Positions 1,212 to 53,183 of a stretch of 64,000 nt of DNA are shown here, piece after piece. The notes beneath the pieces are model-generated. The model saw only the letters and a list, made by a program, of their open reading frames with translations. It was not told the origin of the DNA and ran no database searches. The translations under genes and the position numbers were made by a program. Origin of the DNA: Comamonas sp. SCN 65-56 (GTDB lineage: Bacteria > Pseudomonadota > Gammaproteobacteria > Burkholderiales > Burkholderiaceae_C). Numbering within the stretch: position 1 is the first letter of the stretch; the number at the start of each line of letters is the position of its first letter. The stretch spans positions 1 to 64,000 of the forward strand of contig NZ_MEDS01000012.1 in NCBI RefSeq assembly GCF_001724135.1, read 5' to 3'.

Positions 1212-2171
1212 ATGGTGACGAAATTGAAAGTGAAAGCCATTGCCTTGGCGATGGGTTCATTGTTGGTTGCTGTCTCGGCGCATGCACTGGACCCCCGCTA
1301 CAAGGACGCAGACGGCGACCTGGTCGCCGACGCGCCCACCGACCCCAAGGATTGGGTAGACCCCGCCACGCTGATATTCGCCTACACCCCGGTGGAAGAC
1401 CCGGCGGTCTACGCCAAGGTGTGGGACGGCTTCCTCCAGCACCTGGCCCAGGTCACGGGCAAGCGCGTGCAGTTTTTCCCGGTGCAGTCCAACGCGGCGC
1501 AGCTCGAAGCCATGCGCGCCGGGCGCCTGCACGTGGCTGGCTTCAATACCGGCTCCAACCCACTGGCGGTCAACTGCGCCGGCTTCGTGCCCTTCGCCAT
1601 GATGGCATCCAAGGACAATCGCTACGGCTACGAGATGGAAATCATCACCTACCCGGGCAGCGGCGTGGACAAGGTCGAAGACATCAAGAACAAGAAGCTG
1701 GCCTTCACCTCGGAGACTTCCAACTCCGGCTACAAGGCCCCTTCTGCGCTGCTGCGCAGCCAGTTCAAGATGGAGGCGGGCAAGGACTACACCCCGGTGT
1801 TCTCCGGTAAGCACGACAACTCCATCCTCGGCGTGGCCAATAAGGACTATCCCGCCGCCGCCATCGCCAATTCGGTCAAGCAGCGCATGGAAGCGCGCAA
1901 CATGGTCAAGCCCGAACAGCTCAAGGTGATCTACAAGTCGCAGACCTTCCCGACCACCGGCTATGGCCTGGCCTACAACCTCAAGCCCGAGCTGGCGGCC
2001 AAGATCAAGCAGGCCTTCTTCAGCTTCAACTGGGAAGGCTCGGAACTGGCCAAGGAGTTCAATGCGAGCGAGCCGCCGCAGGAGAAGTTCATGCCCATCG
2101 TCTACAAGCAGCACTGGCAGGTGATCCGCGATATCGACCAGGCAATGAACGTGAGCTACGCCTGCAAATAA
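1212..2171 (+). CDS. phnD: Phosphate/phosphite/phosphonate ABC transporter substrate-binding protein (PhnD/PtxB type)
   Basis: Signal peptide, then PhnD-like fold sequence ([44 protein letters not shown]); adjacent PhnC/PhnE. Confidence 0.88.
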
Positions 2172-2197
2172 GCCCGCAAGCGGCAAGGAGGCAGGGC

Positions 2198-3025
2198 ATG
2201 TTGGAGTTGCGCGCGCTAGATAAGCGCTATCCCACCGGCGATCTGGCGCTCAAGGGTGTGAGCCTGCAAGTGGCGGCGGGCCAGGTGCTGGGCCTGATCG
2301 GGCCTTCGGGCGCTGGCAAGTCCACGCTGATCCGCTGCATCAACCGGCTGGTCAGCCCCAGCGCCGGGCAGATCATGCTGGACGGCCAGGACCTGGGCCG
2401 CCTGTCAGGCCAGGGCCTGCGCCTGGCGCGGCGGCAGATTGGCATGATTTTCCAGGAATACGCGCTGGTCGAGCGCCTGACGGTGATGGAGAACCTGCTC
2501 TCGGGCCGGCTCGGGTACACCGGCTTCTGGGCCAGTTGGTTGCGCCGCTTCGCGGACGACGACATCGCGCAGGCCTACCTGCTGCTCGACCGCGTCGGCC
2601 TCGCGGGCCTGGAGAACAAGCGCGCCGACGCGCTCTCGGGCGGCCAGCGCCAGCGCGTGGGCATCGCGCGTGCACTGATGCAAAGCCCCAAGCTGCTGCT
2701 GGTGGACGAGCCCACCGCCAGCCTGGACCCCAAGACCTCGCGCCAGATCATGCGCCTGATCCTGGAACTGTGCGAGGAGCGCGGCCTGGCCGCCATCGTC
2801 AACATCCACGACGTGGTGCTGGCCACCGAATTCCTGCCGCGCATCGTCGGCCTGCGTGCCGGCAGCGTGGTCTACGACGGCCCGGCCACGGGCCTCGACC
2901 GCGAAGTGCTGACCCGTATCTACGGCGACGAGGACTGGAGCGCCATCACGCGGCAGATGCAGTCGTCGGATGCCGAGGCGCCGCATCCGCAGCCCGCCGG
3001 TCGCCTAGAAGCGGCGGCAGCATGA
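2198..3025 (+). CDS. phnC: Phosphonate-type ABC transporter ATP-binding protein
   Basis: [44 protein letters not shown]. Confidence 0.92.
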
Positions 3026-3825
3026 CAGCGGCCGCCGCGCCCCGGCATTGGCGCCGCCCGCCTTTCATCACCAGCCTCGCATGGCGCTGGGGGCTGATCC
3101 TCGGCGGGGCTCTGTACTTGGTGCTCGCCCTGGCCTCGCTGGAAGTCAACTGGGCGCGTGTGAGCGAGGGACTGGCGCGCGGCTTGCGCTTCGTGGCCGC
3201 CTTCCTGCAGCCCGACTTCGGCTCCCGCCGGAGCGACATCGTGATCGGCTTCCAGGAAAGCCTGACCATGACCGTCACCTCCACTGCGCTGGGCGTGGCG
3301 CTGTCGATTCCGGTCGCGGTCGGCGCGGCGCGCAACTTGGCGCCGGCCTGGATCTACCTGCTGTGCCGCGGCTTCATCGCCGTCTCGCGCACGCTCAACG
3401 AAATCATCGTCGCCATCTTCCTGGTCGCCATGTTCGGCTTCGGCCCCTTCGCCGGTTTCCTGACGCTGACCTTCGCCACCATCGGCTTCATGGCCAAGCT
3501 GATGGCTGAGGACATCGAGGAAATCGTGCCCGGCCAACTCGAAGCCCTCCGCGCCACCGGCGCGAGCTACCCGCAACTGCTGGATTTCGCCGTGCTGTCG
3601 CAGGTGCTGCCGCGCCTGATCGGCCTGTCGCTGTATCGGCTGGACATCAACTTTCGCGAGTCGGCGGTCATCGGCATCGTGGGCGCGGGCGGCATCGGCG
3701 CCACGCTCAACACCGCCATGGATCGTTATGAGTTCGACACCGCTGCGGCAGTCATCCTCGTCATCATCGTCATCGTCATGCTGGCCGAGTACGCCTCGGG
3801 CTGGCTTAGGAAACACGTCCAGTGA
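3022..3825 (+). CDS. phnE: Phosphonate-type ABC transporter permease PhnE (copy 1)
   Basis: [14 protein letters not shown]...; [44 protein letters not shown] overlaps phnC stop. Confidence 0.88.
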
Positions 3826-4625
3826 GCAGCTCGGCACCCCTGTGGCGCAAGCGCACGCCCGGCCAGGACGCCACCGTCTTCATGGCCTGGGTGCTGGCGC
3901 TCGCCTTCGTCTCATGGACCTTCCAGGTGATGACCCAGAACACCATTTGGGCCTTCGTCGCCGACGCGCCGGCCCAGGTCGCCGACATCGGCTCGCGCAT
4001 GCTGCCGCCGGCCTGGTCCTTCATGGGCGAGCTGTGGTGGCCGCTGTGGGAAACGCTCAACATCGCCACCCTGGGCACTTTGCTGGGCGTCATGCTGGCG
4101 GTGCCGGTGGCCTTTCTGGCGGCGCGCAACACCACGCCCAGCGCGCGCTTCGTGCGCCCGCTGGCGCTACTGGCCATCGTTGGCTCGCGCTCCATCAACT
4201 CGCTGATCTGGGCTCTGCTGCTGGTGGCCATTCTGGGCCCCGGCGTGCTGGCCGGCATCATTGCCATTGCGCTGCGTTCGATCGGCTTCATCGGCAAGTT
4301 GCTCTACGAGGCCATCGAGGAAATCGACCCCCGGCAGGTAGAAGCGGTGCAAGCCACCGGCGCCTCGGGCGCCCAGGTCATGGCCTGGGGCGTGGCGCCA
4401 CAGATTGCGCCCACCCTGGCCGGCATCAGCGTGTTCCGCTGGGACATCAACATCCGCGAATCCACTGTGCTCGGCCTGGTGGGCGCAGGCGGCATCGGCG
4501 TCAAGCTGGAAGCCGCGCTGGGCACGCTGGCCTGGCCGAAGGTCACGATGCTGCTGATCGCCATTTTTGCGACGGTGCTGGTCAGCGAATGGGTCACGGC
4601 CCACGTGCGCAAGGAGTTGATCTGA
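3822..4625 (+). CDS. phnE: Phosphonate-type ABC transporter permease PhnE (copy 2)
   Basis: GTG start overlapping previous stop (GTGA); paralogous permease sequence (AVPVAFLAARNTTPSARFVRPLALLAIVGSRSINSLIWALLL). Confidence 0.86.
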   Translation: MSSSAPLWRKRTPGQDATVFMAWVLALAFVSWTFQVMTQNTIWAFVADAPAQVADIGSRMLPPAWSFMGELWWPLWETLNIATLGTLLGVMLAVPVAFLAARNTTPSARFVRPLALLAIVGSRSINSLIWALLLVAILGPGVLAGIIAIALRSIGFIGKLLYEAIEEIDPRQVEAVQATGASGAQVMAWGVAPQIAPTLAGISVFRWDINIRESTVLGLVGAGGIGVKLEAALGTLAWPKVTMLLIAIFATVLVSEWVTAHVRKELI

Positions 4626-6859: not shown

Positions 6860-7836
<977 letters not shown>

Positions 7837-39738: not shown

Positions 39739-39761
39739 CCGCCTGGGCACGGCTCAGGCGG
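39739..39761. terminator. GC-rich hairpin CCGCCTG...CAGGCGG between convergent genes
   Basis: 7-bp stem, flanked by AA/TTT; overlaps ackA stop. Confidence 0.5.
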
Positions 39762-40989
39762 TTTGCGCCGCCAGCAACTCCAGCGTCTGCTGTGCGGCCA
39801 CCCACTCCTCATTGGTTTTTTCCACGCCCACGCTCACCCGGCTGCCCGCGGCCGAGATCGTCACTGCGTGGCGGGCGTTGGCCTGCGCGTCGATCTGCAC
39901 GCCCAGCCACCCCAGCCGCTCGCAGATGCGCGCGCGCAGCAGGTCGTTGTGCTCGCCGATGCCGGCGGTGAAGACGAGCATGTCCAGGCCGCCCAGCACG
40001 GCGGTGAGCGCGCCGATCTCGCGCACGATGCGCTGCACGTAGAGCGCAAGCGCCGCGCGTACGCGTTCGTTGCCCGCTTCCAGCGGCAGCAGTTCGCGCG
40101 GGTCAGGCGAGACGCCGGAGACGCCCAGCAGTCCGCTGTCGTGGTAGAGCATGGCGGCCACCGCGTCCGTGCTCAGCTTTTGCTCTTGCATCAGATAGAT
40201 CACCGCTCCAGGGTCCAGCAGCCCGCAGCGCGTGCCCATCATCAGCCCGTCGAGCGCGGAAAAGCCCATGGTGGTGGCCCGGCTTTGCAGGTTCTGCATC
40301 GCGCACAGGCTGGCGCCACTGCCCAGGTGCGCAACGATGGTGCGCCCGCATGCCAGATCACCATGGCGCTCGGGCAGTGCGCGGCTCATGAAGTCGTACG
40401 ACAGGCCATGAAAACCGTAGCGGCGAATGCCGGACTCCCAGGCCGACCAGGGCAGGGCGAACATCTGCTCGACTTGCGGCACGGTACGGTGAAACGCGGT
40501 GTCAAAGCAGGCCACCTGCGCCGTCGCTGGGTGCTGTTGCAGGATCAGGCTCATGGCCTTGAGCGGAAAGGGCTGGTGCAGCGGCGCCAGCGGTATCAGC
40601 GCGCGCAACTCGTCGATGACCGCCTGGGTGATGCGTGTGGGCGCAAAGTAGTGCTGCCCGCCATGCACCACGCGGTGCGCGACGGCCTTGAGCGGCGCGC
40701 CCTGCAGCTGCGCATTGACGCGCGCCAGGATGATCTGCAGCGCGGCGGTGGTCGGGTGCTCGGCATCCAGCACCAGGGGTAGCGGCGCGCGGCCCGACTC
40801 ATCCAGCGTCGGTTGCGCCTGGCCTATGCCTTGCACCTTGCCGCTGTAGAGCGCGGCGCGCGGCAGCGGCGTGCTGCCGGTATCGAACAGGGCGAACTTG
40901 ATGCTCGACGAGCCGCAGTTCAGGACGAGGATGGGGCCTTGATCGCTCATGGTGTTGCTCGGGCGGTGCATCGGCATGTCGGCGTTCAT
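39754..40989 (-). CDS. ackA: Acetate kinase
   Basis: ILVLNCGSSSIKFALFD; CFDTAFHRTVPQVEQMFALP; YGFHGLSYDFMS. Confidence 0.94.
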   Translation of the reverse strand: MNADMPMHRPSNTMSDQGPILVLNCGSSSIKFALFDTGSTPLPRAALYSGKVQGIGQAQPTLDESGRAPLPLVLDAEHPTTAALQIILARVNAQLQGAPLKAVAHRVVHGGQHYFAPTRITQAVIDELRALIPLAPLHQPFPLKAMSLILQQHPATAQVACFDTAFHRTVPQVEQMFALPWSAWESGIRRYGFHGLSYDFMSRALPERHGDLACGRTIVAHLGSGASLCAMQNLQSRATTMGFSALDGLMMGTRCGLLDPGAVIYLMQEQKLSTDAVAAMLYHDSGLLGVSGVSPDPRELLPLEAGNERVRAALALYVQRIVREIGALTAVLGGLDMLVFTAGIGEHNDLLRARICERLGWLGVQIDAQANARHAVTISAAGSRVSVGVEKTNEEWVAAQQTLELLAAQTA

Positions 40990-41912
40990 GGGCTTGCCAG
41001 CAGGCGTGCAATCGCGCAGGAGGCCAGCCGCGTGGTGCGCGAATCGGACCGGCTGGTGAGCACCAGTGGCACGCGCGCGCCCATCACGATGCCGGCGCTC
41101 TCGGCGCCGCCGAGGTATTCGAGCTGCTTGGCAAGCATGTTGCCGCTTTCCAGGTCCGGCACCACCAGCACATCCGCCTGCCCGGCGACGGGCGAGGTGA
41201 TGCCCTTAACCTGTGCCGCCTCGGGCGAGACGGCGTTGTCGAAGGCCAGCGGCCCATCGAGCACGCCGCCGGTGATCTGCCCGCGGTCGGCCATCTTGCA
41301 CAGCGCGGCGGCATCCAGCGTGGCCGGCATGCGCGGGTTCACCGTCTCCACTGCGGCGAGGATGGCGACCTTGGGCAGCGCCACGCCCAGCACCTGGGCC
41401 AGAGCGATGGCGTTGCGGATGATGTCGGCCTTGTCCACCAGCGTGGGGGCGATGTTGATGGCGGCGTCGGTGATGAGGAAGGGGCGCGGGTAGCTGGGCG
41501 TCTGCATCACGTAGCAGTGCGACAGGCGCCGCTCGGTGCGCAAGCCGACCTCGGGCGCCAGCACCGCGGCCAGGTATTCGTCGGTGTGCAGGCTGCCTTT
41601 CATCAGCGCCTGCACTTCGCCCTTGCCGGCCAGTTGCGCGGCTGCGGCTGCGGCTGCGTGGCTGTGGGGCGCATCGACGATTTCACAGCCGCTCAGGTCC
41701 AGTGCGCTTGCTTGTGCCAGATGTTCGAGTTTTGCCTTGGGTGCGACGAGCACCGGAGCAATGACGCCTGCATCGCGCGCGTCCAGCGCGCCGGCCAGGC
41801 TCAGTGCATCGCAGGGGTGCACGACGGCGGTGCGCATCGGTGCCATGCCGTGCACCTGGTTGAGCAGACGGGTGATGCCCTCGCGCAGGGCGGGTGCTTG
41901 GGTGGTGCTCAT
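40986..41912 (-). CDS. Phosphate acetyl/butyryltransferase family protein
   Basis: AGKGEVQALMKGSLHTDEYLAAVL; LSHCYVMQTPSYPRPFLITDAAINIAP; overlaps ackA. Confidence 0.9.
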   Translation of the reverse strand: MSTTQAPALREGITRLLNQVHGMAPMRTAVVHPCDALSLAGALDARDAGVIAPVLVAPKAKLEHLAQASALDLSGCEIVDAPHSHAAAAAAAQLAGKGEVQALMKGSLHTDEYLAAVLAPEVGLRTERRLSHCYVMQTPSYPRPFLITDAAINIAPTLVDKADIIRNAIALAQVLGVALPKVAILAAVETVNPRMPATLDAAALCKMADRGQITGGVLDGPLAFDNAVSPEAAQVKGITSPVAGQADVLVVPDLESGNMLAKQLEYLGGAESAGIVMGARVPLVLTSRSDSRTTRLASCAIARLLASP

Positions 41913-41962
41913 GCGGTCCGTGGTCCTTGAGGAAGAACCCGGATGCTATCCGCTGGCACGGG

Positions 41963-42796
41963 TCAGGGCTGAAACAGCGTGTTGAGCTCGCGCCCGGCCG
42001 TGGCGCCTGCGAAGCCGTCAAAACGTCCTTCGGTGGCGAGTGCGCTGGCGGCGCGCATGAAGCCGCCCCAGGCGGCACGTGCCAGAGCGCCGCCGACGCT
42101 GATGCGGCGCACGCCGAGCGCCGCCAGATCGGCGACGCTGAAGGCGCTGGTGCCGCCCACCAGCACGTTGACCGGCTTGGGCGCGCAGGCGGCGACCACG
42201 GCGGTGATCTGCTCGTGCGTATGGATGCCCGGCGCGTAGAGGCAATCGGCCCCCGCTTCGTCGTAGGCGCGCAGACGGGCGATGGCGTCGTCAATGTCTG
42301 GCCGGCCGACGAAGAAGTTTTCCGCACGGCCAATCAGCATCACGTTCTGGCCGCTGGCAGCGATCGCCTCGCGAGCGGCGCGCAGGCGCTCCACGGCGCG
42401 CGGGATCTCCATGAGGGGTGCGTAAGGGTTTCCCGTGGAGTCTTCAATGGAGATGCCGGATATGCCTGTAGCGCAAGCCAGACCTACGTTATGCGCTACG
42501 CCTTCAGGAGTATCAGCATAGCCGCTCTCGAAATCCGCGTTCACCGGCAGATCGGTGGCGGCGACGATGCTGCGCAGGTAACCGAGTACGGCTTCAAGCG
42601 GCATGGCGCCGTCCCGCGCGCCATGCGACCAGGCGAACCCCGAGCTGGTCGTCGCCAGGGCCTTGAAGCCCAGGCTGGCGAGGTAGCGTGCCGAGCCGAC
42701 ATCCCAGGGGTTGGGGATGACGAAGCAGCCCGCAGCATGCAGTGCGCGAAACTGCGTGTGCCGCGCCTCGAGCCGCGTTGGTTCCGGTGGGTTCAT
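41963..42796 (-). CDS. Isocitrate lyase/PEP mutase superfamily protein
   Basis: QFRALHAAGCFVIPNPWDVGSARYLASLGFKALATTSSGFAWSHG; GISIEDSTGNPYAPL. Confidence 0.88.
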   Translation of the reverse strand: MNPPEPTRLEARHTQFRALHAAGCFVIPNPWDVGSARYLASLGFKALATTSSGFAWSHGARDGAMPLEAVLGYLRSIVAATDLPVNADFESGYADTPEGVAHNVGLACATGISGISIEDSTGNPYAPLMEIPRAVERLRAAREAIAASGQNVMLIGRAENFFVGRPDIDDAIARLRAYDEAGADCLYAPGIHTHEQITAVVAACAPKPVNVLVGGTSAFSVADLAALGVRRISVGGALARAAWGGFMRAASALATEGRFDGFAGATAGRELNTLFQP

Positions 42797-42854
42797 GGCG
42801 GGTGCCTCCTCGCGATCATCGTAGCGCTGCCGTGGGAAGCGCGCCAAAAGGGAT

Positions 42855-44504
42855 TCAGGGGCGGGAAATCGGTGCGCCCCCATAGACGGATGCCGGATCG
42901 ACCTTGACGTCGATCACCATCGGGCGCTTGCGGTCGCGCGTGGCGATCGCTTGCATGGCCGATTGCAGCTCGGCGCTGCTGGTGACCGTGATGCCCTTGG
43001 CGCCAAAGGCTTCGGCGATGCGGGCGAAATCGCGCTGCGGCAGCAGCGACAGGCTGGGGTCCATGTTGTGTGCGGTCAGCGCGATGTGCTCGGCGCCGTA
43101 GCTGCCGTCGTTGGGCACGACGATGATGAGGTCCAGCTGCTCGTCCACCGCCGTCGCCAGCTCGCTCAGGCCGCTGAGCGTGAAGCCGCCGTCGCCCACG
43201 ACCAGCAGCGTGGGGCGCTCGCCCGCGGCCCTGGCGGCGCCGATCGAGTGGGCCAGACCCAGGCCGATGGAGGAGAAGCCATTGCAATCCACATAGGAAT
43301 GCGGGTTGGGCACCGAGATCACGTTCCAGAAGGCGAACATGAAGCGGCCGGAATCGGTTAGGAACACGCGGTCCCTGGGCAGCGCTGCTTCGAGCGCGAA
43401 GGCGATCTCGTACAGGTCCACCGTGCCGGCGGGGGTTTTGTGCATCAGCTTCTGGCGCTTGTGCGCATCCCAGGCCTGAAGCTGCTCACGCAAATGCTCG
43501 CTGCGCGCACCGGAGCCGGGGATTTCCGCTTCGTCCAGCCACTTGACCATGGCGTCGGCCGTCAGGCCCGGGTCACCCACCAGGCCCACCGTCACCGGCG
43601 TGCAGCGGCCGATCTCGCTGGCCAGCGGGTTGATCTGGACGATGCGCTTGCCGCGTGTCAGGCCGCGGTGGCCCGAGGTGTACTTGTTGAGGCTGGCGCC
43701 GAAGACCACGAGGCAATCGGCCTTGCCGATCACGTCCAGCGCCACCTCATGGCTCACGGTGCCCGAGATGCCGAGGTGAAACGGATCGCCAGCGAAAAGA
43801 CCCTTGCCGCGCAGGGAAGTCGCCACCGGCGCCTCGATGCGGTGGGCAAAACGCAGCACCGCCGCCTCGGCTTCGGGGGTATCAATGCCGCGCCCGCCAA
43901 TGACCACCGGCAGGTGGGCCGAGGCGATGATGCCGATGGCATCGTCCATGTCGGTGCTGCTGGGGATGGCGCTGCGCGTTTGCGGCAGGCGCAGCGCGGG
44001 TTTTTCGTATTCGATCTCCTTCCACTGCAGCTCGACCGGCATGTTGAAGACGATGGGCCGGCGCTCGGTCCAGGCGCGATGAAACGCCCGCACCAGGTCT
44101 TCGGCCACCGTATCGATGCCGCGCAGGTTGACCACGCCCGCGCCGGTGGCGGTGACCAGCTCCACATGGTTGATGTGCTGCGCGTGCTCCAGGTCGGTCG
44201 CCGGGGTCACGCCGGCCAGCAGCACCATGGGGGTGGCGGCCTTCACGCCCTCGATCAGCGCGGTGACGGTGTTGGCCAGCCCCGGGCCATGGGTCACCGT
44301 GGCCACACCGATGCGGCCGGTGACGCGCGCCCAGCCCTGCGCCATCAGCACCGCGCCGCCTTCGTTGACGGCGGGGAAGTAGTGGCCCTGGGTGTCGCGG
44401 CGGAAGCTGTCCACGACGTAGACGCAGCCATCGCCCAGCACGCCAAACAGCTCGGTGCACCCCATGTCCCACAATCCGTGGGCGATGGCTTCATAGACTT
44501 TCAT
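42855..44504 (-). CDS. Thiamine-pyrophosphate-dependent enzyme (acetolactate-synthase-like)
   Basis: GVLGDGCVYVVDSFRR...NEGGAVLMAQGWARVTGRIGVATVTHGPGLANT; TPP motif VVGDGGFTLSGLSELATAVDEQLDLIIVVPND. Confidence 0.9.
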   Translation of the reverse strand: MKVYEAIAHGLWDMGCTELFGVLGDGCVYVVDSFRRDTQGHYFPAVNEGGAVLMAQGWARVTGRIGVATVTHGPGLANTVTALIEGVKAATPMVLLAGVTPATDLEHAQHINHVELVTATGAGVVNLRGIDTVAEDLVRAFHRAWTERRPIVFNMPVELQWKEIEYEKPALRLPQTRSAIPSSTDMDDAIGIIASAHLPVVIGGRGIDTPEAEAAVLRFAHRIEAPVATSLRGKGLFAGDPFHLGISGTVSHEVALDVIGKADCLVVFGASLNKYTSGHRGLTRGKRIVQINPLASEIGRCTPVTVGLVGDPGLTADAMVKWLDEAEIPGSGARSEHLREQLQAWDAHKRQKLMHKTPAGTVDLYEIAFALEAALPRDRVFLTDSGRFMFAFWNVISVPNPHSYVDCNGFSSIGLGLAHSIGAARAAGERPTLLVVGDGGFTLSGLSELATAVDEQLDLIIVVPNDGSYGAEHIALTAHNMDPSLSLLPQRDFARIAEAFGAKGITVTSSAELQSAMQAIATRDRKRPMVIDVKVDPASVYGGAPISRP

Positions 44505-45592: not shown

Positions 45593-47554
45593 ATGACTTC
45601 CCCGTTGCGCTCCACCCTCGATTTCCTGCTCTACGACTGGCTGCAGGCACCCGCCCTGACCGAACGGCCGAGGTTCGCCGACCATTCGCGCGAGACCTTT
45701 GACGCCGTGCTCGACACCTGTGAGCGCATCGCGCGCGAGAAATATGCGCCGTTCAACCGCCAGGTCGACACCGAGGAGCCGCGTACCGAGCCCGACGGCG
45801 CAGGCAGCCTGCGCGTGGTGCTGCCGCGCTGCACGCACGAGGCGCGCCAGACCTACGCCGACAGCGGCATGCTGGCCGCGGCGCAGGACTACGCGCTGGG
45901 CGGCATGCAGCTGCCCTGGCTGGTGGATGCGGCGGCCAACACTTTTTTTGGCGTGGCGTCGATCAGCATTGGCTCCAACCTGCTGACCACGGGCAACGCC
46001 AACGCCATCCTGGCGCACGGCACTGCCTTGCAGCAGCAGGTGTTTGCCGCCAACGAGTTCAATGGCCGCTGGGCCGGCACGATGTGCCTCTCGGAGCCGC
46101 AGGCGGGCTCTTCCTTGAGCGACATCGCCACGCGCGCCGTCGCTGATGGGGCGGACTTTGCCGCCGACCCGCTCGGCCCGCGCTACCGCCTGACGGGCAA
46201 CAAGATGTGGATCAGCTCTGGCGAGCACGAGATGACGGAGAACATCGTGCACCTGGTGCTGGCCAAGATCCCGCAGGCCGATGGCACGCTGGTGCCGGGG
46301 GTCAAGGGGATTTCGCTGTTCATCGTGCCGAAATTTTTGGTGGAGGTGGGCAGCCCTCACCCCGGCCCTCTCCCAGAAGGAGAGGGGGGAGTACCGCTGG
46401 GCGCTGGCGATGGTCCCGACTCCTTCCCCCTCTGGGGGAAGGCTGGGATGGGGGCTGCGCGCGTCACGCTGGGCGAGAGGAATGACATCGCCCTTGCCGG
46501 CCTGAACCACAAGCTCGGCTGGCGCGGCACGACGAATACGCTGCTGAACTTTGGCGAGGGCCGTTACCCCGTCAAGGGCCAGGCCGGCGCCATCGGCTAC
46601 CTGGTCGGCCAGCCCGGCGAGGGGCTCAAATGCATGTTTCACATGATGAACGAGGCGCGCATCGCCATCGGCATGGCGGCCACGGCACTGGGGCTCGCCG
46701 GCTATTACGCCAGCCTGGACTACGCCAAGACCCGGCTGCAGGGCCGGCCCGTGGGCGCCGGCGGCAAGGACGCCGCTGCGCCGCAGGTGGCGCTGATTGA
46801 GCACGCCGACGTCAAGCGCATGCTGCTGGCGCAAAAGAGTTTTTGCGAGGGCGCGCTGGCGCTCAACCTGTACTGCGCGCGGCTGGTCGACGAAGGCCGC
46901 ACCGGCGCGCCGGAGGCCGCGGCCGAGGCCAAACTGCTGCTGGAGCTGCTGACACCGATCGCCAAAAGCTGGCCGAGCGAGAACTGCCTGGAGGCCAATT
47001 CGCTGGCCATCCAGATCCACGGCGGCTATGGCTATACGCGCGACTTTGCCGTCGAGCAGTACTGGCGCGACAACCGCCTGAACATGATCCACGAGGGCAC
47101 GCACGGCATCCAGGCGCAGGATTTGCTCGGGCGCAAGGTGGTGATGCAGGGCGGCGCGGCGCTGGCGCTGTGGGCCGCGCGCGTGCAGGCCACGGCAGTG
47201 GCGGCCGCGCAAACGCCGGCGCTGGCCGCCTGGGCCGGGCAGTTGCAGCAGGCGCTGGCGCAGCTGCAAGCGGCCACGCGCGATGCCTGGAGCAGCGGCG
47301 ACCCGGCCGCGGCGCTGGCCAACGCCGTGCCCTATCTGCAAGCCTTTGGCCACGTGGTGCTGGCCTGGGTGTGGCTCGACGTGGCGCTCTGCGTGCAGCA
47401 GCAGGATGCTCCGCTACCGATAGCTGCCAACGCAGGCAGGATGGGCGCTGCATGCTATTTTTACCATTACGAACTGCCAAAAATAGCCGCCTGGCTGGCG
47501 CCGGTGGCGCGGCGTGACAGCACCTGCATGGCAGTGCCAGCAGATGCTTTTTGA
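45593..47554 (+). CDS. Acyl-CoA dehydrogenase family protein with in-frame palindromic insertion
   Basis: GTMCLSEPQAGSSLSDIATRA; GLNHKLGWRGTTNTLLNFGEG; IQIHGGYGYTRDFAVEQYWRD. Confidence 0.93.
   Translation: MTSPLRSTLDFLLYDWLQAPALTERPRFADHSRETFDAVLDTCERIAREKYAPFNRQVDTEEPRTEPDGAGSLRVVLPRCTHEARQTYADSGMLAAAQDYALGGMQLPWLVDAAANTFFGVASISIGSNLLTTGNANAILAHGTALQQQVFAANEFNGRWAGTMCLSEPQAGSSLSDIATRAVADGADFAADPLGPRYRLTGNKMWISSGEHEMTENIVHLVLAKIPQADGTLVPGVKGISLFIVPKFLVEVGSPHPGPLPEGEGGVPLGAGDGPDSFPLWGKAGMGAARVTLGERNDIALAGLNHKLGWRGTTNTLLNFGEGRYPVKGQAGAIGYLVGQPGEGLKCMFHMMNEARIAIGMAATALGLAGYYASLDYAKTRLQGRPVGAGGKDAAAPQVALIEHADVKRMLLAQKSFCEGALALNLYCARLVDEGRTGAPEAAAEAKLLLELLTPIAKSWPSENCLEANSLAIQIHGGYGYTRDFAVEQYWRDNRLNMIHEGTHGIQAQDLLGRKVVMQGGAALALWAARVQATAVAAAQTPALAAWAGQLQQALAQLQAATRDAWSSGDPAAALANAVPYLQAFGHVVLAWVWLDVALCVQQQDAPLPIAANAGRMGAACYFYHYELPKIAAWLAPVARRDSTCMAVPADAF
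46353..46457. repeat. REP-like palindromic element (CCCTCACCCCGGCCCTCTCCC...) inserted in acyl-CoA dehydrogenase gene
   Basis: Encodes SPHPGPLPEGEG...; outer arms CCCTCACCCCGGCCCTCTCCC / GGGGGAAGGCTGGGATGGGGG form imperfect inverted repeat. Confidence 0.88.
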
Positions 47555-47615: not shown

Positions 47616-48107
47616 ATGCGCACCCTGCTCATCGTCCATCACACGCTCACCGGCGGCACGCTACAGATGGTGCAGGCGGCGCAGCAGGGGGCGGCGGGTG
47701 AACCGGATGTGCAGGTGCGACTGCTGAGCGCCCAGGAGACCGGTGTGGGTGACCTGCTGGCCGCAACGGGCTATCTGTTTGCCACGCCGGAAAACCTGGC
47801 CAGCATGGCCGGCATGATGAAGGATTTTTTTGACCGCACGTATTACGGCGCGCTGGGTCGTATCGAGGGGCGTCCGTATGCGGGCATGGTCTGTGCCGGC
47901 AGCGATGGCGAGGGCGCGGCGCGCCAGATGGCACGCATTGCCACGGGCTGGCGCTTGAGACCGGTGGCCGAGCCCCTCATCGTCTGCACCCATGCGCAAA
48001 CGCCGGAGGCGATTGCGGCGCCCAAGCACATAGTCGAGGCCGATCGCGAACGCTGCCGAGCGCTGGGCGAGGCGCTGGCTGCCGGGCTGGCACTGGGCAT
48101 TTTTTAG
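47616..48107 (+). CDS. Flavodoxin/NADPH-dependent FMN reductase-like protein
   Basis: TLLIVHHTLTGGTLQMVQAAQQGA...LFATPENLASMAGMMKDFFDRTYY. Confidence 0.8.
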   Translation: MRTLLIVHHTLTGGTLQMVQAAQQGAAGEPDVQVRLLSAQETGVGDLLAATGYLFATPENLASMAGMMKDFFDRTYYGALGRIEGRPYAGMVCAGSDGEGAARQMARIATGWRLRPVAEPLIVCTHAQTPEAIAAPKHIVEADRERCRALGEALAAGLALGIF

Positions 48108-48137
48108 CGCAGCGTAGACTTGCCTTGTGCGCTATAA

Positions 48138-48168
48138 AATGGCTGTTCCCGCACTGCGGGCAGCCATT
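48138..48168. promoter_or_regulatory. Strong hairpin AATGGCTG-TT-CCCGC-ACT-GCGGG-CAGCCATT just after TATAAAAT
   Basis: 8+5 bp stem with 2-nt bulge, upstream of ACAD/PhnD-like/diiron cluster. Confidence 0.5.
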
Positions 48169-48310
48169 CGCTGATGGCCTCCGTATGATGGTGTTGCAGG
48201 TCTGCACAGGAAATCATCGTGCGAGAACGTGTCCATTGCAGCGCTCTTTTCCACGATCGGTCACCAGTGTGAATTGCGCCCTGGTTTGCGGTCTTGCTTG
48301 TTTTCATCCC

Positions 48311-49432
48311 ATGTCTTTTATTTCTACGCTGGAGCCCATCGTTCAGGACGTGATCGCGCCCACGGCCGAGATCACTGACAAAGAGGCCCGATTCCCACGT
48401 GCTGCACTCGACGCCTTGGGCGCGGCTGGGCTGCTGGGCCTGATCAGTCACCGCGATGTCGGTGGTTTGGGTCTTGGCCTGACCGAGGCAACCCAGGTCG
48501 TCGAACGCATTGCGCGCGATTGCTCTTCCACCGCCATGGTGCTGACCATGCACTACGCGGGTACCACCCTGATCGAGAAGTATGGGCAACGTGCCCTGCG
48601 CGAGGCGATTGCCGCCGGTCGGCACCTGACCACGCTGGCGTGGTCAGAGGTGGGTACGCGCAGCCATTTCTGGGCACCGGTGGGTACGGCCCGTCGCGAG
48701 GGGAACGCGGTGGTCCTCGATGGACGCAAGAGCATGGTCACGTCGGCAGGCGCGGCGGATTCCTACGTCTGGTCCTCACGCCCTACGCAGGGCGATGCAG
48801 CTTGCAGCCTCTGGGTGGTCGACAGCCGCCTGCCGGGTTTGTCCAGCCCCGCTCCGTTCGATGGGCTCGGCTTGCGCGCGAACGCTTCGGCGCCGGTCAG
48901 CGCTGAAGGTGTGCGCATCGGCCTCGACTGCCTTCTGGGCGACGACGGCCAGGGCGCCGAACTGATGAACAACGATGAGTTGCCGACGTTCACGGCGCTG
49001 ATTGCCTCCTGCTCCATCGGCATGATGGATGGTGCGCTCTCGCGTGCCACGGCGCACATCACCCACGGCCGTTTTGCCGAAAGCGGCAGCAGCATTGCCG
49101 ATTTGCCGACGGTGCGCGCGTATCTCGCACGGGCCTGCATCCGTGCCGACCAGGCGCGCCTGTTGCGCGACGACACGCTGGCGGCACTGGCTGCAGGGCG
49201 TGCCGATGCGACACTGCGTGTGCTGCAGGTCAAGGCCAGCGCTGCCGAGGCTGCGCTGGAAGTGACTGATACCGCAATGCGCATTTGCGGTGGCGCGGCC
49301 TTCCGCAAGGATCTGGGCATAGAGAGGATGTTCCGCGATGCGCGAGCGGCATCTATCATGGCGCCGACGTCGGACGTACTGTTCGATTTCATCGGCGGTG
49401 CGCTGTGCGATGCCGCGGCCCCCAAAAAATAA
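48311..49432 (+). CDS. Acyl-CoA dehydrogenase superfamily protein (possibly DszC/SfnC-like flavin monooxygenase relative)
   Basis: FPRAALDALGAAGLLGLISHRDVGGLGLGLTEATQVVERIARDCSSTAMVLTMHYAG; MRICGGAAFRKDLGIERMFRDARAASIMAPTSDVL. Confidence 0.85.
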   Translation: MSFISTLEPIVQDVIAPTAEITDKEARFPRAALDALGAAGLLGLISHRDVGGLGLGLTEATQVVERIARDCSSTAMVLTMHYAGTTLIEKYGQRALREAIAAGRHLTTLAWSEVGTRSHFWAPVGTARREGNAVVLDGRKSMVTSAGAADSYVWSSRPTQGDAACSLWVVDSRLPGLSSPAPFDGLGLRANASAPVSAEGVRIGLDCLLGDDGQGAELMNNDELPTFTALIASCSIGMMDGALSRATAHITHGRFAESGSSIADLPTVRAYLARACIRADQARLLRDDTLAALAAGRADATLRVLQVKASAAEAALEVTDTAMRICGGAAFRKDLGIERMFRDARAASIMAPTSDVLFDFIGGALCDAAAPKK

Positions 49433-49452
49433 GGCGTTTTCCAGGATCTCCC

Positions 49453-50316
49453 ATGCGTTCATCCCCTCTCATGCTTGGCGCCGTTGCCTATGCGCCCAAG
49501 GTCGTCACCATCTGGGAAGGCTTCAAGGCGTGGTTGGCAGAGCGCGGCTTTGCCATGGACTACGTCTTGTATTCCAACTACGAGGCGCAGGTGCAAGCGC
49601 AGTTCACGGGCGATATTGCATTCGCCTGGAATTCACCGCTGGCCTGGGTGCGGGCCGACCGCATGGCGCGCGCGCGCGGTCAGAGCGTGCGTTCGCTGGT
49701 GATGCGTGACACTGATCAGGACCTGCAGTCGGTGCTTGTCGTCAAGGCCGACAGCCCGCTGAAGCAATTGGCCGATCTGCGTGGCCAGGCGGTGGGCTTT
49801 GGCGCCATCGATTCACCGCAAGCCACGCTGATTCCGCTCGATCATCTGCAGCACCAGGGGGGCTTGGTGGGCGGACGTGAGTACGAGGTGTGCCGCTTTG
49901 ACGTGCTCGGCGGCAAGCATGGCGACCATATCGGCGGTGAACGTGATGCGGCGCAGGCCATGCTCAGAGGCGAAGTGGCGGCAAGCTGGATGATTGCCGG
50001 CAACTACCAGGCGTTCGCGCAAGAAGGGACTTTGCCAGCCGGCGGAACGCGCGTGCTGGCCACGACGAGCTTGTTCGACCACTGCACGCTTACCGTGAGC
50101 CCCGGCGTGGATGCGCAGGCGGCCGATCGCCTGGGCGGGTTGCTGCTGTCCATGGATTGGGACGATGCGCAGGTACGCCCGCTGCTGGAGCTTGAAGGTT
50201 TGCGCCAATGGCGCGCGGGGCGCACCAGCGGGTGGGCGCTGCTTGAACGTGCGGCAACGGAGCAGGGGTTTTATGACGCCAACGGTGGACTGCTCGCCAG
50301 CGACTATCGATATTGA
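49453..50316 (+). CDS. PhnD/SsuA-like substrate-binding fold protein lacking a signal peptide
   Basis: LMLGAVAYAPKVVTIWEGFKAWLAERGFAMDYVLYSNYEAQVQAQFTGDIAFAWNSPLAWVRA; no hydrophobic leader. Confidence 0.8.
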   Translation: MRSSPLMLGAVAYAPKVVTIWEGFKAWLAERGFAMDYVLYSNYEAQVQAQFTGDIAFAWNSPLAWVRADRMARARGQSVRSLVMRDTDQDLQSVLVVKADSPLKQLADLRGQAVGFGAIDSPQATLIPLDHLQHQGGLVGGREYEVCRFDVLGGKHGDHIGGERDAAQAMLRGEVAASWMIAGNYQAFAQEGTLPAGGTRVLATTSLFDHCTLTVSPGVDAQAADRLGGLLLSMDWDDAQVRPLLELEGLRQWRAGRTSGWALLERAATEQGFYDANGGLLASDYRY

Positions 50317-51484
50317 AGACTTGGGCTTCGATGCCGGGGCGCACCTGCTGGTCAAGCACGCGCTCGCGCACGTTGCGGTAGGTGGTCGGCTGCGTGTGAC
50401 CGGGCAGGGCGCGGGCTGGCAAGCGCCGCTTGCCCATTGGTGTCGCTCGCAAGGGCACGCCATCAGCCTTGAAGGCGAGGCCGCCGTGATTGCGCGCGGC
50501 AGTGCACAGACCGGGCGTTGGCGCGATGCGCTGGCCACCGGGCGCAGCGATCCGCACGTGCCGGGTGCGGTGCTGGAACAGGCCGAACCCGGTTGGGGGT
50601 TGGCCGCCCGCGGAGCACTGGTGGAGGCGGGCTCGCCCTCGTTTGCGTTTCGCCTGGATCGCAAGGAAGAAGTCTGGTGCGACAACGCGGCAGAGCTCTA
50701 TGCGCAGGCTGTCGCGGCGCAGTGGAACCCGGATACCGCATTGGACTGGAGCGTTTCATTCACGCACCCGCCCGAGATCGAGCAAGCTGTGTGCCAGGTT
50801 ATGACCTACATGGTGGAGAACGAGAACGCTGCGCTGCTCGTTCCCGCTCGCTTTCTTGGCCAGATCCACCCGCATTTCCGCGAGATGCAGGCAGCGCTTG
50901 CCATTCAGGTGGCGGACGAGGCGCGCCATATCGACGTCTTCACCCGCCGCATTCGCAAGGGCGGGCGTGAGCCCGCACTTTCCACCGCGGGTGGACAGGC
51001 GTCGCTCAAGACGCTGCTCGATGAGCCGGACTTTTCGATGGCGAGCTTTTTGCTGTCGGTACAGGGGGAGGGCAGCTTTGTTCATTTGCTGCAGTTTCTT
51101 GCCGAGCACGGGCCGGATCCGCTTACGCGCCAGATCTGCAAGCTGGCGGCGCGCGACGAGGCACGTCATGTGGCTCTGGGCATGTCCCACCTGCTCTATC
51201 GCCTGCAGGCTGGGCCTGCGCTGCGCCAGCAATTGGCCCGGGCGATGCAGCAGCGCCACGAGGGCTTGTCCGGGACTTCGGGTTTGAATGAGGAAGTGTT
51301 CGATGCGCTGATCCTGATAGGTGCAGGAGCCTTGGACATCGCGGCGCTGCGGCGAGGCTTTGAGCGTGTGCAGGCATTGGTGCGGGACATGGCCGGGGGG
51401 CGCTTTGCACGCTTGCTGCGCTTGGGTTTCGAGCGCGACGAGGCGCAGCGGCTTTCGCTGCTGCACACGCGCAATTTCATGTGA
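50273..51484 (+). CDS. Ferritin-like diiron protein with N-terminal TusA-like domain
   Basis: DLGFDAGAHLLVKHALAHVAVGGRLRVTG...HWCRSQGHAI (TusA-like, CPxP lost); diiron motifs VADEARHIDVF and AARDEARHVALGMSHL. Confidence 0.78.
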   Translation: MTPTVDCSPATIDIEDLGFDAGAHLLVKHALAHVAVGGRLRVTGQGAGWQAPLAHWCRSQGHAISLEGEAAVIARGSAQTGRWRDALATGRSDPHVPGAVLEQAEPGWGLAARGALVEAGSPSFAFRLDRKEEVWCDNAAELYAQAVAAQWNPDTALDWSVSFTHPPEIEQAVCQVMTYMVENENAALLVPARFLGQIHPHFREMQAALAIQVADEARHIDVFTRRIRKGGREPALSTAGGQASLKTLLDEPDFSMASFLLSVQGEGSFVHLLQFLAEHGPDPLTRQICKLAARDEARHVALGMSHLLYRLQAGPALRQQLARAMQQRHEGLSGTSGLNEEVFDALILIGAGALDIAALRRGFERVQALVRDMAGGRFARLLRLGFERDEAQRLSLLHTRNFM

Positions 51485-51554: not shown

Positions 51555-53183
51555 ATGTCCGCGCAGCGTGCGGTGCTGCTGCTCACGCTGTACCTGCTGC
51601 TCACGGCCAATTGGCCGCTGTGGCTGAGCCTGGCGCGTATTGCCCAGGGTCAGGGCGATGTGCTGTCGCTGGGTGTCCCCATGCTGGGCCTGCTCGCCAG
51701 TGCGACGCTGGCGGTGCTGGGCGTGACCGCCTGGTCGCGCGGCATGCGCTGGCTCTGGTGGCTCTTGCTGCTGGTGGCGGCGCTGGCGCAGTACTACATG
51801 CTGACCTACCGGGTGGTGATGGACCCGGGCATGCTCACCAACGTGATGCAGACCGATGTGCGCGAGACGCGCGATCTGCTCACCGCCCGTCTGCTGACGT
51901 CAGTGCTGCTGGTGATGACGCTGCCGACCTGGTGGTTGCTGCACCTGCAACTCCTGCCCGCTCCCTGGTGGCGCCAGATGGCGCGCAATGCGGGTTTGAT
52001 CGCGCTGGCGCTGGCGCTGGCAGGAGCCACCATCGCGCTGGGTTCGCGCAGCCTGGCGCCGCTGATGCGCAACCACACCGAACTGCGTTACCTGATGAAC
52101 CCGGCAGCGCCGCTGTTTTCGAGCGTGATGGCCGTGCACGACCAATGGTTCAGCCGCCCGCGTACCCTGGTGAAAATGACCGCAGGCGCGGCGCTTGGCG
52201 CGAGCCATGCCGGCAACCGACGGCCGCTGCTGCTGGCACTGGTGGTGGGCGAAACCGCGCGTGCGGACCATTTCGCGCTCAATGGCTATGCGCGTGCCAC
52301 CAACCCCGAGCTGGCCCGTCGCGATGATGTACTGAGCTGGCGCGACGTGTTTTCCTGCGGCACCAGTACCGCGGCATCGCTGCCGTGCATGTTTTCGCCA
52401 TTGGGGCGCGATGGCTTCCTCGCGCGCAGCGAGGACACGGAAAACCTGCTCGATGTCGTGCAAGCCGCCGGTCTTGCGGTGCTGTGGCTGGATAACCAGA
52501 GTGGCTGCAAGGGTGTGTGCGACCGCGTGCACCATGCGGATGCGATCGACGGCTTGAGCCCGCAGCAGCGCCAGCAGCTGTGCCCCGGCGGTGAATGCAG
52601 CGACGAGGCCATGCTGGCAGGGCTGGATGCGCGCATCGCCGCGTTGCCCGAGGCCGAGCGCGCGCGCGGCGTGCTGCTGGTGCTGCACCAGATGGGCAGC
52701 CATGGCCCGGCCTACTACAAGCGTTCAACGGCGGCGCAGAAAACGTTCGAACCCGAATGCCGCACCGAAGTGCTCTCCGACTGCGATCAGCAGGCGCTCA
52801 TCAACGCCTACGACAACTCCATCGTCGCCACCGATGCCTTTCTGGCCGGCACGGTGGATTGGCTTGCGCAGCGCTCGGCGCAAAGCGACACCGGCCTGCT
52901 GTACGTGAGTGACCACGGCGAATCGCTCGGAGAATACGGACTGTACCTGCACGGCATGCCCTACGCGGTGGCGCCCGACGTGCAAAAGCATGTGCCTATG
53001 CTTGCCTGGTTCAGCGCGCCACTGCAGCAGCGCCTGGGGCTTTCGCCGGTTTGTTTGCGCACGCATCTGGATGCGCCGCTGACGCACGACAACCTGTATT
53101 CGTCGGTGCTCACGCTGCTCGATGTGCGCTCGCCCAGCTACAACCGCGCGCTGGATCTGTTCGCGGCCTGCCGTCGTGAATAG
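51555..53183 (+). CDS. eptA: Lipid A phosphoethanolamine transferase-like protein (EptA family)
   Basis: Five N-terminal TMs; LALVVGETARADHFALNGYARATNP; FSCGTSTAASLPCMFS; SDHGESLGEYGLYLHGMPYAVAP. Confidence 0.9.
   Translation: MSAQRAVLLLTLYLLLTANWPLWLSLARIAQGQGDVLSLGVPMLGLLASATLAVLGVTAWSRGMRWLWWLLLLVAALAQYYMLTYRVVMDPGMLTNVMQTDVRETRDLLTARLLTSVLLVMTLPTWWLLHLQLLPAPWWRQMARNAGLIALALALAGATIALGSRSLAPLMRNHTELRYLMNPAAPLFSSVMAVHDQWFSRPRTLVKMTAGAALGASHAGNRRPLLLALVVGETARADHFALNGYARATNPELARRDDVLSWRDVFSCGTSTAASLPCMFSPLGRDGFLARSEDTENLLDVVQAAGLAVLWLDNQSGCKGVCDRVHHADAIDGLSPQQRQQLCPGGECSDEAMLAGLDARIAALPEAERARGVLLVLHQMGSHGPAYYKRSTAAQKTFEPECRTEVLSDCDQQALINAYDNSIVATDAFLAGTVDWLAQRSAQSDTGLLYVSDHGESLGEYGLYLHGMPYAVAPDVQKHVPMLAWFSAPLQQRLGLSPVCLRTHLDAPLTHDNLYSSVLTLLDVRSPSYNRALDLFAACRRE

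Follow-up and report, generated by a model that had tools for sequence, protein, structure and literature searches.

In Actinobacteria, the Rv1678-Rv1681 cassette (NF049986, NF049984, NF049985 and NF049973; FadE16, the SBP-like Rv1680 and the radical SAM protein Rv1681/MoeX) sets an acyl-CoA dehydrogenase (ACAD) relative ahead of a protein resembling a substrate-binding protein (SBP), and no function for this cassette was found in the literature searched (Rv1679/Rv1680; fadE16 together with moeX). Among genes linked to selenium, YedE, YedF, a LysR-like regulator and DUF3343 are listed as accessory candidates (PMC5322559), none of them an ACAD, SBP or diiron protein. By keyword, published selenium-candidate surveys name no ACAD, phosphonate-type SBP or ferritin-like protein, and according to a 2026 review (PMC13188914) a high-affinity transport system dedicated to selenium has yet to be identified in prokaryotes. 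Here we describe a three-gene locus, hereafter the trio, in a 64,000-nucleotide stretch of Comamonas sp. SCN 65-56 (contig NZ_MEDS01000012.1, positions 1 to 64,000; the window), which combines the same ACAD-SBP order with a protein fusing a TusA-like to a ferritin-like diiron domain (TF). Its components belong to known superfamilies, and the system as a whole matches no characterised one; no description of the trio was found in the literature searched, although most subscription journals lay outside it and a prior report is possible. Based on the genomic context of its relatives, the trio probably belongs to selenium metabolism.

The genes of the trio and the segments considered below are as follows.

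48311..49432, plus strand: ACAD-like flavoprotein gene (373 amino acids; Rv1679/FadE16-like)
49453..50316, plus strand: leaderless PhnD/PtxB-fold (SBP-like) gene (287 amino acids; Rv1680-like; product predicted to be cytosolic)
49915..49941, plus strand: codons 155-163 of the SBP-like gene (KHGDHIGGE), where the oxyanion-binding loop is altered by substitution and an 11-residue insert
50080..50085, plus strand: codons 210-211 of the SBP-like gene (His-Cys), invariant in 41/41 SBP homologues
50273..51484, plus strand: TusA-like/ferritin-like diiron fusion (TF) gene (403 amino acids)
50300..50497, plus strand: TusA-like domain of TF (about residues 10-75); CPxP cysteine missing, Cys57 kept in 39/43 homologues
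50771..51460, plus strand: ferritin-like four-helix domain of TF (about residues 167-396), with E184, E216-H219, E266 and E296-H299

As an earlier reading of the sequence alone had described, the three genes are co-directional and tightly packed, and the SBP-like and TF genes overlap by exactly 44 bp (50273-50316). The start that this sequence-only reading gave to the system, 48138, lies about 170 bp too far upstream: the ACAD-like open reading frame (ORF) extends back to a TTG at 48125, yet relatives align from MSFISTLE..., so that ATG 48311 is the most likely start.

To place the trio in its genomic context, we scanned about 85,000 species genomes with an SBP profile, which yielded 237 relatives, and used the best 80 loci, drawn from Beta-, Gamma- and Alphaproteobacteria. 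All neighbouring genes were clustered blind, and the identities of sel genes were checked with NCBIfam, in which the SelD, SelA, SelB, MnmH/SelU and FdhE neighbours scored above the cut-offs. The top non-trio neighbours included SelD, SelA, SelB, SelU, FdhE, FdhD and subunits of formate dehydrogenase (FDH). Within 10 kb, at least one of selA, selB, selD and selU was present in 28/80 loci (SelD in 20, SelA in 21, SelB in 20 and SelU in 14), while fdh, fdhE or fdhD was found near the trio in about 20 loci. Counted by genus, and assuming four sel loci in a 5.5-Mb genome, such proximity would arise by chance with a binomial p-value of about 6e-11. At least six arrangements of sel genes and trio were observed across Beta- and Gammaproteobacteria.

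Arrangement 1 (Variovorax, Pseudacidovorax, Rhizobacter): fdh-fdhE-selA-[trio]-selB
Arrangement 2 (Ideonella, Hylemonella, Ramlibacter): selA-selB-[trio]
Arrangement 3 (Xenophilus and further Comamonadaceae): [trio]-selD
Arrangement 4 (Lampropedia): SBP-TF-ACAD-selD
Arrangement 5 (Luteimonas): selD-selB-selA-fdhE, on the opposite strand
Arrangement 6 (Peristeroidobacter): selD-selA, divergent

Measured between longest-ORF boundaries, same-strand gaps spanned 14-50 bp between selA and the trio, 3-17 bp between the trio and selB, and 1-46 bp between the trio and selD, and gaps of this size (1-50 bp) imply that trio and sel genes share transcripts. Whereas the sequence-only reading had proposed a sulfur- or phosphonate-containing substrate, the neighbourhoods, with sel genes in 28/80 loci, point to selenium as the element. 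Two further neighbourhoods were recorded. In one Burkholderiales metagenome-assembled genome (MAG), the trio is preceded on its own strand by genes for a DsrE2 sulfur carrier and for a TusA that contains CPxP (locus L025, 4829-5546). In two Caulobacter-family loci (L074 and L099), the oxygen-dependent tRNA U34 hydroxylase TrhO lies upstream of the SBP-TF pair; its identity was checked in L074, and L099 has a similar ORF at the same place. TrhO beside SBP-TF is another wobble-uridine link.

SelD was detected in 76/79 trio genomes, compared to 215/300 genomes sampled across the order (Fisher p-value 2.7e-7, relatedness ignored). The three trio genomes lacking SelD were a Delftia MAG, a second MAG of 1.5 Mb and a genome assembled into very short contigs, while the isolate Delftia tsuruhatensis has both trio and SelD. 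Within the Caulobacter family, SelD was similarly found in 7/8 TF-bearing genomes vs. 85/191 others (p-value 0.02), and across the order and this family 3 of 4 SelD-less cases are MAGs or a fragmented assembly. The host pathways downstream of SelD were more varied: six trio genomes have SelB without SelU, about a dozen have SelU without SelB above the cut-off, and intact trio genomes with SelD always have a selenocysteine (Sec) or selenouridine (SeU) pathway (50 genomes checked for both). Since SelD is the only selenium component that these hosts share, the trio probably acts at the level of selenophosphate synthesis or upstream of it, and not in either the Sec or the SeU branch. In the window's own genome, fdh-fdhE-selA-selB and selU lie on contig 25, with selD on contig 11. 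A stop, apparently a Sec codon, divides the FDH alpha subunit of this genome into two ORFs of one frame, the pattern expected of such a codon.

The three genes are one evolutionary unit. Good full-length matches were obtained across the 80 loci for SBP in 79, ACAD in 72 and the fusion protein in 72, with all three in 65, and the pairwise identities of the three proteins are correlated from locus to locus (r 0.82-0.88, against no more than 0.11 in permutations). The neighbourhood conservation of the trio, suggested earlier as a check, is borne out, including by correlated divergence. The distribution is accessory and patchy, with 5/300 genomes in the order and 2/399 in the phylum. The five sampled genomes of the order that encode a full-length fusion protein (the window's included) belong to three families and always carry ACAD-like and SBP-like genes too. 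Gene order differs between lineages (SBP-ACAD-TF in Luteimonas, SBP-TF-ACAD in Lampropedia), and the Caulobacter-family loci comprise SBP and TF without ACAD, leaving SBP and the diiron fusion as the most constant pair of the trio in Proteobacteria. One locus has a decayed trio, in which the SBP gene is spread over two frames and a TAG interrupts the third gene (L027, G084:C23, 7226-8673); because this genome keeps SelD and SelU, the trio is dispensable there.

The SBP-like protein matches the Pfam family Phosphonate-bd (E 6e-29), and its best NCBIfam match is the Rv1680 SBP-like family (NF049985, 208.6 bits vs. a cut-off of 400), consistent with a related sister clade. Its predicted model (pLDDT 91) adopts a type II periplasmic-binding fold, for which the nearest Foldseek matches were PtxB, PhnD, HtxB, AioX and ArrX (PtxB/PhnD E about 1e-20). 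While PtxB, HtxB, PhnD and AioX are thus alike in fold (Foldseek E 6e-21 to 1e-15) and remotely similar in sequence, the window protein differs from them in having no export signal, transporter partner, STS loop or G-H-D loop. In 38/80 homologues, 20 or fewer open codons lie upstream of the GAVAYAP motif, into which a leader would not fit, and most others have only hydrophilic sequence there; an exported form made from an alternative upstream start was looked for, and none was found. DSPQA stands in place of the Ser/Thr oxyanion loop, which reads STS in PtxB and the TIGR04553 paralogue, and an insert containing KHGDHIGGERD in place of the G-H-D oxyanion loop. With these oxyanion-binding loops gone, the protein is unlikely to have a classical phosphonate or sulfonate ligand. 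K155, H156, D158, H159, E163, H210 and C211 are instead invariant in the 41 homologues, and six of these (K155, H156, D158, E163, H210 and C211) are kept in the actinobacterial Rv1680 family and missing from the transporter-type paralogue. As judged from residue conservation, the KHGD, E and His-Cys residues form a new site, which might bind metal, take part in catalysis or bind selenium at Cys211. The transporter-type paralogue is the TIGR04553 putative selenate ABC transporter binding protein, a PhnD-superfamily member found a few kb from the trio and next to selD in Variovorax. It differs from the SBP-like protein in being of the exported transporter type, with 26-27% identity and neither the KHGD insert nor the HC pair, and no functional description of TIGR04553, or of selenium with flavin or diiron enzymes, was found in the literature searched. 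The earlier statement that no membrane transporter is present holds for the genes adjoining the trio in the window, although about 10 relatives have a TIGR04553 'putative selenate' ABC transporter nearby.

The fusion protein was detected as a weak AurF match (below the Pfam cut-off; PDB profile E about 1e-3) with only a hint of TusA at its N-terminus (Pfam TusA E 0.17). The CPxP cysteine site corresponds to A23/H24, with no Cys there in any of 43 homologues, while Cys57, which is kept in most of them, occupies the second, non-catalytic TusA position. YedF/SirA-like proteins resemble the trio in linking a TusA/SirA-type domain genomically to selD and other selenium genes, but YedF keeps CPxP and adds DsrE. 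In the C-terminal domain, the predicted diiron ligands (E184, E216/H219, E266 and E296/H299, i.e., two ExxH motifs and two further Glu) are invariant in 43/43 homologues. The predicted model (pLDDT 90) places the ferritin-like domain nearest to the oxygenases ADO (aldehyde-deformylating oxygenase), VlmB and R2lox. The domain has the ferritin-like fold and paired ExxH metal-ligand pattern in common with the diiron (or Mn/Fe) oxygenases VlmB, AurF, ADO and R2lox, from which it differs in its fusion to a TusA-like domain and a marginal sequence similarity.

The flavoprotein has the N, middle and C domains of ACADs (PF02771, PF02770 and PF00441, above Pfam gathering scores), and its best NCBIfam match is the Rv1679/FadE16 family (NF049984, 342.7 bits, under the curated cut-off of 600). 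The position of the catalytic Glu in short- and medium-chain acyl-CoA dehydrogenases (SCAD/MCAD, YEGTSE) is Ala351 in the window protein and A, G or S in 37/37 relatives (APTSD), and the aligned catalytic position of isovaleryl-CoA dehydrogenase (IVD), inspected by eye, is likewise without Glu. With the catalytic Glu gone at both positions, the predicted protein is not an ordinary acyl-CoA dehydrogenase, and it may instead be an SfnB/DszC-type flavoenzyme, either a monooxygenase or an oxidase. The earlier picture of an enzyme-like cytosolic system was thus upheld in its parts: a non-dehydrogenase ACAD relative, a binding-fold protein without signal peptide, and a diiron protein whose TusA-like domain has lost its CPxP cysteine are co-conserved.

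The ACAD-SBP pair has a counterpart in Actinobacteria. On a plasmid of Miltoncostaea oceani, about 6 kb separate such a pair from selD-selA-selB, a divergent operon, and the SBP is 59% identical to that of the window. An Rv1681-like radical SAM gene stands upstream and a radical SAM/SPASM gene downstream of this pair, in a neighbourhood that also includes a glycosyltransferase and a TIGR04282 'arsenosugar' transferase-like gene. The DUF2515 protein in Miltoncostaea was compared as a diverged TusA/diiron protein and is unrelated. In Mycolicibacterium vanbaalenii, the ACAD-SBP pair is part of an Rv1678-Rv1681 cassette, with members above NCBIfam cut-offs and the radical SAM gene directly after SBP, while a Rhodococcus plasmid has the Rv1678-Rv1680 part of the cassette. 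The pairs of the window and of Mycolicibacterium are 36% (SBP) and 44% (ACAD) identical, and both systems share the KHGD, E and HC residues as well as an APT motif replacing the catalytic Glu. They differ in that a radical SAM gene, instead of the TusA/diiron fusion, follows the pair and a membrane protein precedes it in the cassette, and in that the window ACAD and SBP score below both curated Rv1679/Rv1680 cut-offs. The alternation of radical SAM and diiron proteins beside the same ACAD-SBP core suggests, by analogy, that the two may perform equivalent chemistry without and with O2. On the M. vanbaalenii plasmid, the genes on either side of the cassette encode deiodinase-like, AhpD-like, CcdA and TrsS-like radical SAM proteins (L130, 4339-15859), families that include selenoproteins elsewhere.

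Around the trio in the window, a flavodoxin-like reductase (47616-48107), a FadE-type ACAD (45596-47554) and an alkaline-phosphatase-superfamily gene (51555-53183) were considered as parts of the system and ruled out, as no relative of any of the three was found in the 80 trio loci. Simple scans for promoter and terminator signals returned none above chance, and a hairpin-like inverted repeat without a T tract (GGCTGTTCCCGCA-C-TGCGGGCAGCC, 48138-48165) lies between the flavodoxin-like and ACAD-like genes. The FadE-type ACAD gene is interrupted in frame at 46349-46453 by about 35 residues (GSPHPGPLPEGEGG...KAGMG), where solved relatives have nothing and the DNA resembles a repeat element inserted in frame. 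Further upstream, a minus-strand cluster (39754-44504) encodes acetate kinase-like, phosphotransacetylase-like, and phosphoenolpyruvate mutase/isocitrate lyase-like proteins and a thiamine pyrophosphate (TPP) enzyme nearest to sulfoacetaldehyde acetyltransferase (222 bits vs. a cut-off of 676); it resembles a set for the catabolism of C2 sulfonates or phosphonates, although its substrate is uncertain. Apart from the trio, the window also contains genes for an exported PhnD-type SBP (TIGR01098, 232 bits, above the cut-off), an ATPase and a permease (1212-4625), followed by a ModA molybdate-binding gene (6961-7836).

Within selenium metabolism, we tentatively favor a role of the trio in supplying selenium to SelD, as an O2-dependent cytosolic system of aerobic proteobacteria. 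In such a system, the leaderless PhnD-fold protein, with its invariant KHGD, E and His-Cys residues, would bind a small selenium species in the cytosol, the ACAD-like flavoprotein and the diiron domain would oxidise that species with O2, and the selenium would then be released or channelled in a form usable by thiols and SelD, with the TusA-like domain as a candidate carrier fold. Several observations weigh against this reading. No sel gene lies within 10 kb in 52/80 loci (some of these being short contigs), and the window itself has no adjoining sel gene, so that the connection to selenium is drawn from relatives and from other parts of the genome. Across the order, SelD is frequent regardless (72%), which is why co-location outweighs co-occurrence as evidence. 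The flavoprotein is dispensable in the Caulobacter family, since ACAD is missing there. Finally, Mycobacterium tuberculosis has a divergent Rv1679-Rv1681 cassette and is not known to have SelD, in which case the chemistry of the ACAD-SBP core may not need selenophosphate.

Other roles can be weighed against the same observations. The trio might protect from selenium rather than supply it, oxidising or sequestering reactive selenide under O2 or removing misincorporated selenium: oxygenase-type components, a cytosolic Cys-containing binding-fold protein and a patchy accessory distribution would suit such a function, which fits Sec-only and SeU-only hosts equally. We nevertheless consider it unlikely, as the very tight linkage to biosynthetic genes, down to a position between selA and selB, is less expected for detoxification, and no efflux, stress or metalloid-resistance genes were enriched near the trio in the 80-locus neighbour survey. 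A position downstream of SelD, in which selenophosphate would be used to build a selenium-containing small molecule or cofactor, could account for the near-constant SelD co-occurrence (76/79), for a TusA-like carrier and a phosphite/phosphonate-type fold able to hold a selenophosphate-derived species, and for the radical SAM, glycosyltransferase and 'arsenosugar' transferase-like genes in Miltoncostaea. This appears decidedly unlikely given that Sec or SeU was always present with SelD in the 50 genomes, leaving no orphan SelD for the trio to explain, that the oxyanion-binding loops of the SBP are lost, and that the Rv1680 clade occurs in organisms not known to have SelD.

Two further explanations would make the proximity to sel genes indirect. 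A sulfur- or phosphonate-scavenging enzyme system with incidental selenium proximity is suggested by the superfamilies themselves (an SfnB/DszC-like ACAD score, the PhnD fold and the TusA fold) and by the many stand-alone loci, and yet seems quite improbable when confronted with 28/80 sel-linked loci in varied orders and direct operon contact (binomial p-value <1e-10 by genus, for the assumed number of sel loci), and with neighbour clustering of the 80 loci in which ssu, tau, phn and sfn genes were not enriched. A role in FDH maturation or formate metabolism, by which the trio would owe its place near sel genes solely to the fact that FDH is a selenoprotein, is in line with the fdh, fdhE or fdhD genes in about 20 loci. 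It is very improbable, however, as trio and selD are in contact without fdh structural genes in Xenophilus and Lampropedia, and about a dozen hosts have no SelB, with the trio present in selenouridine-only genomes.

An oxygenase/binding-protein module embedded in selA-selB and selD operons represents a concrete, genetically testable candidate for bringing selenium to SelD, a step that to our knowledge is unsettled in aerobic cells. More broadly, and more speculatively, the proteobacterial set of ACAD, leaderless SBP and TusA/diiron fusion and the actinobacterial set of ACAD, SBP and radical SAM protein could be two forms of an undescribed selenium pathway, in which a binding-protein scaffold, turned into an enzyme, would use O2- or radical-based chemistry to make or mobilise a specific selenium species. 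Such a pathway would, if real, either serve SelD as its dedicated source of selenium or yield a selenium metabolite that is new. The module would also exemplify how a transporter-type fold can be put to use within the cell, here with a new invariant polar/Cys site, and would give a first functional lead for the uncharacterised mycobacterial Rv1678-Rv1681 genes.

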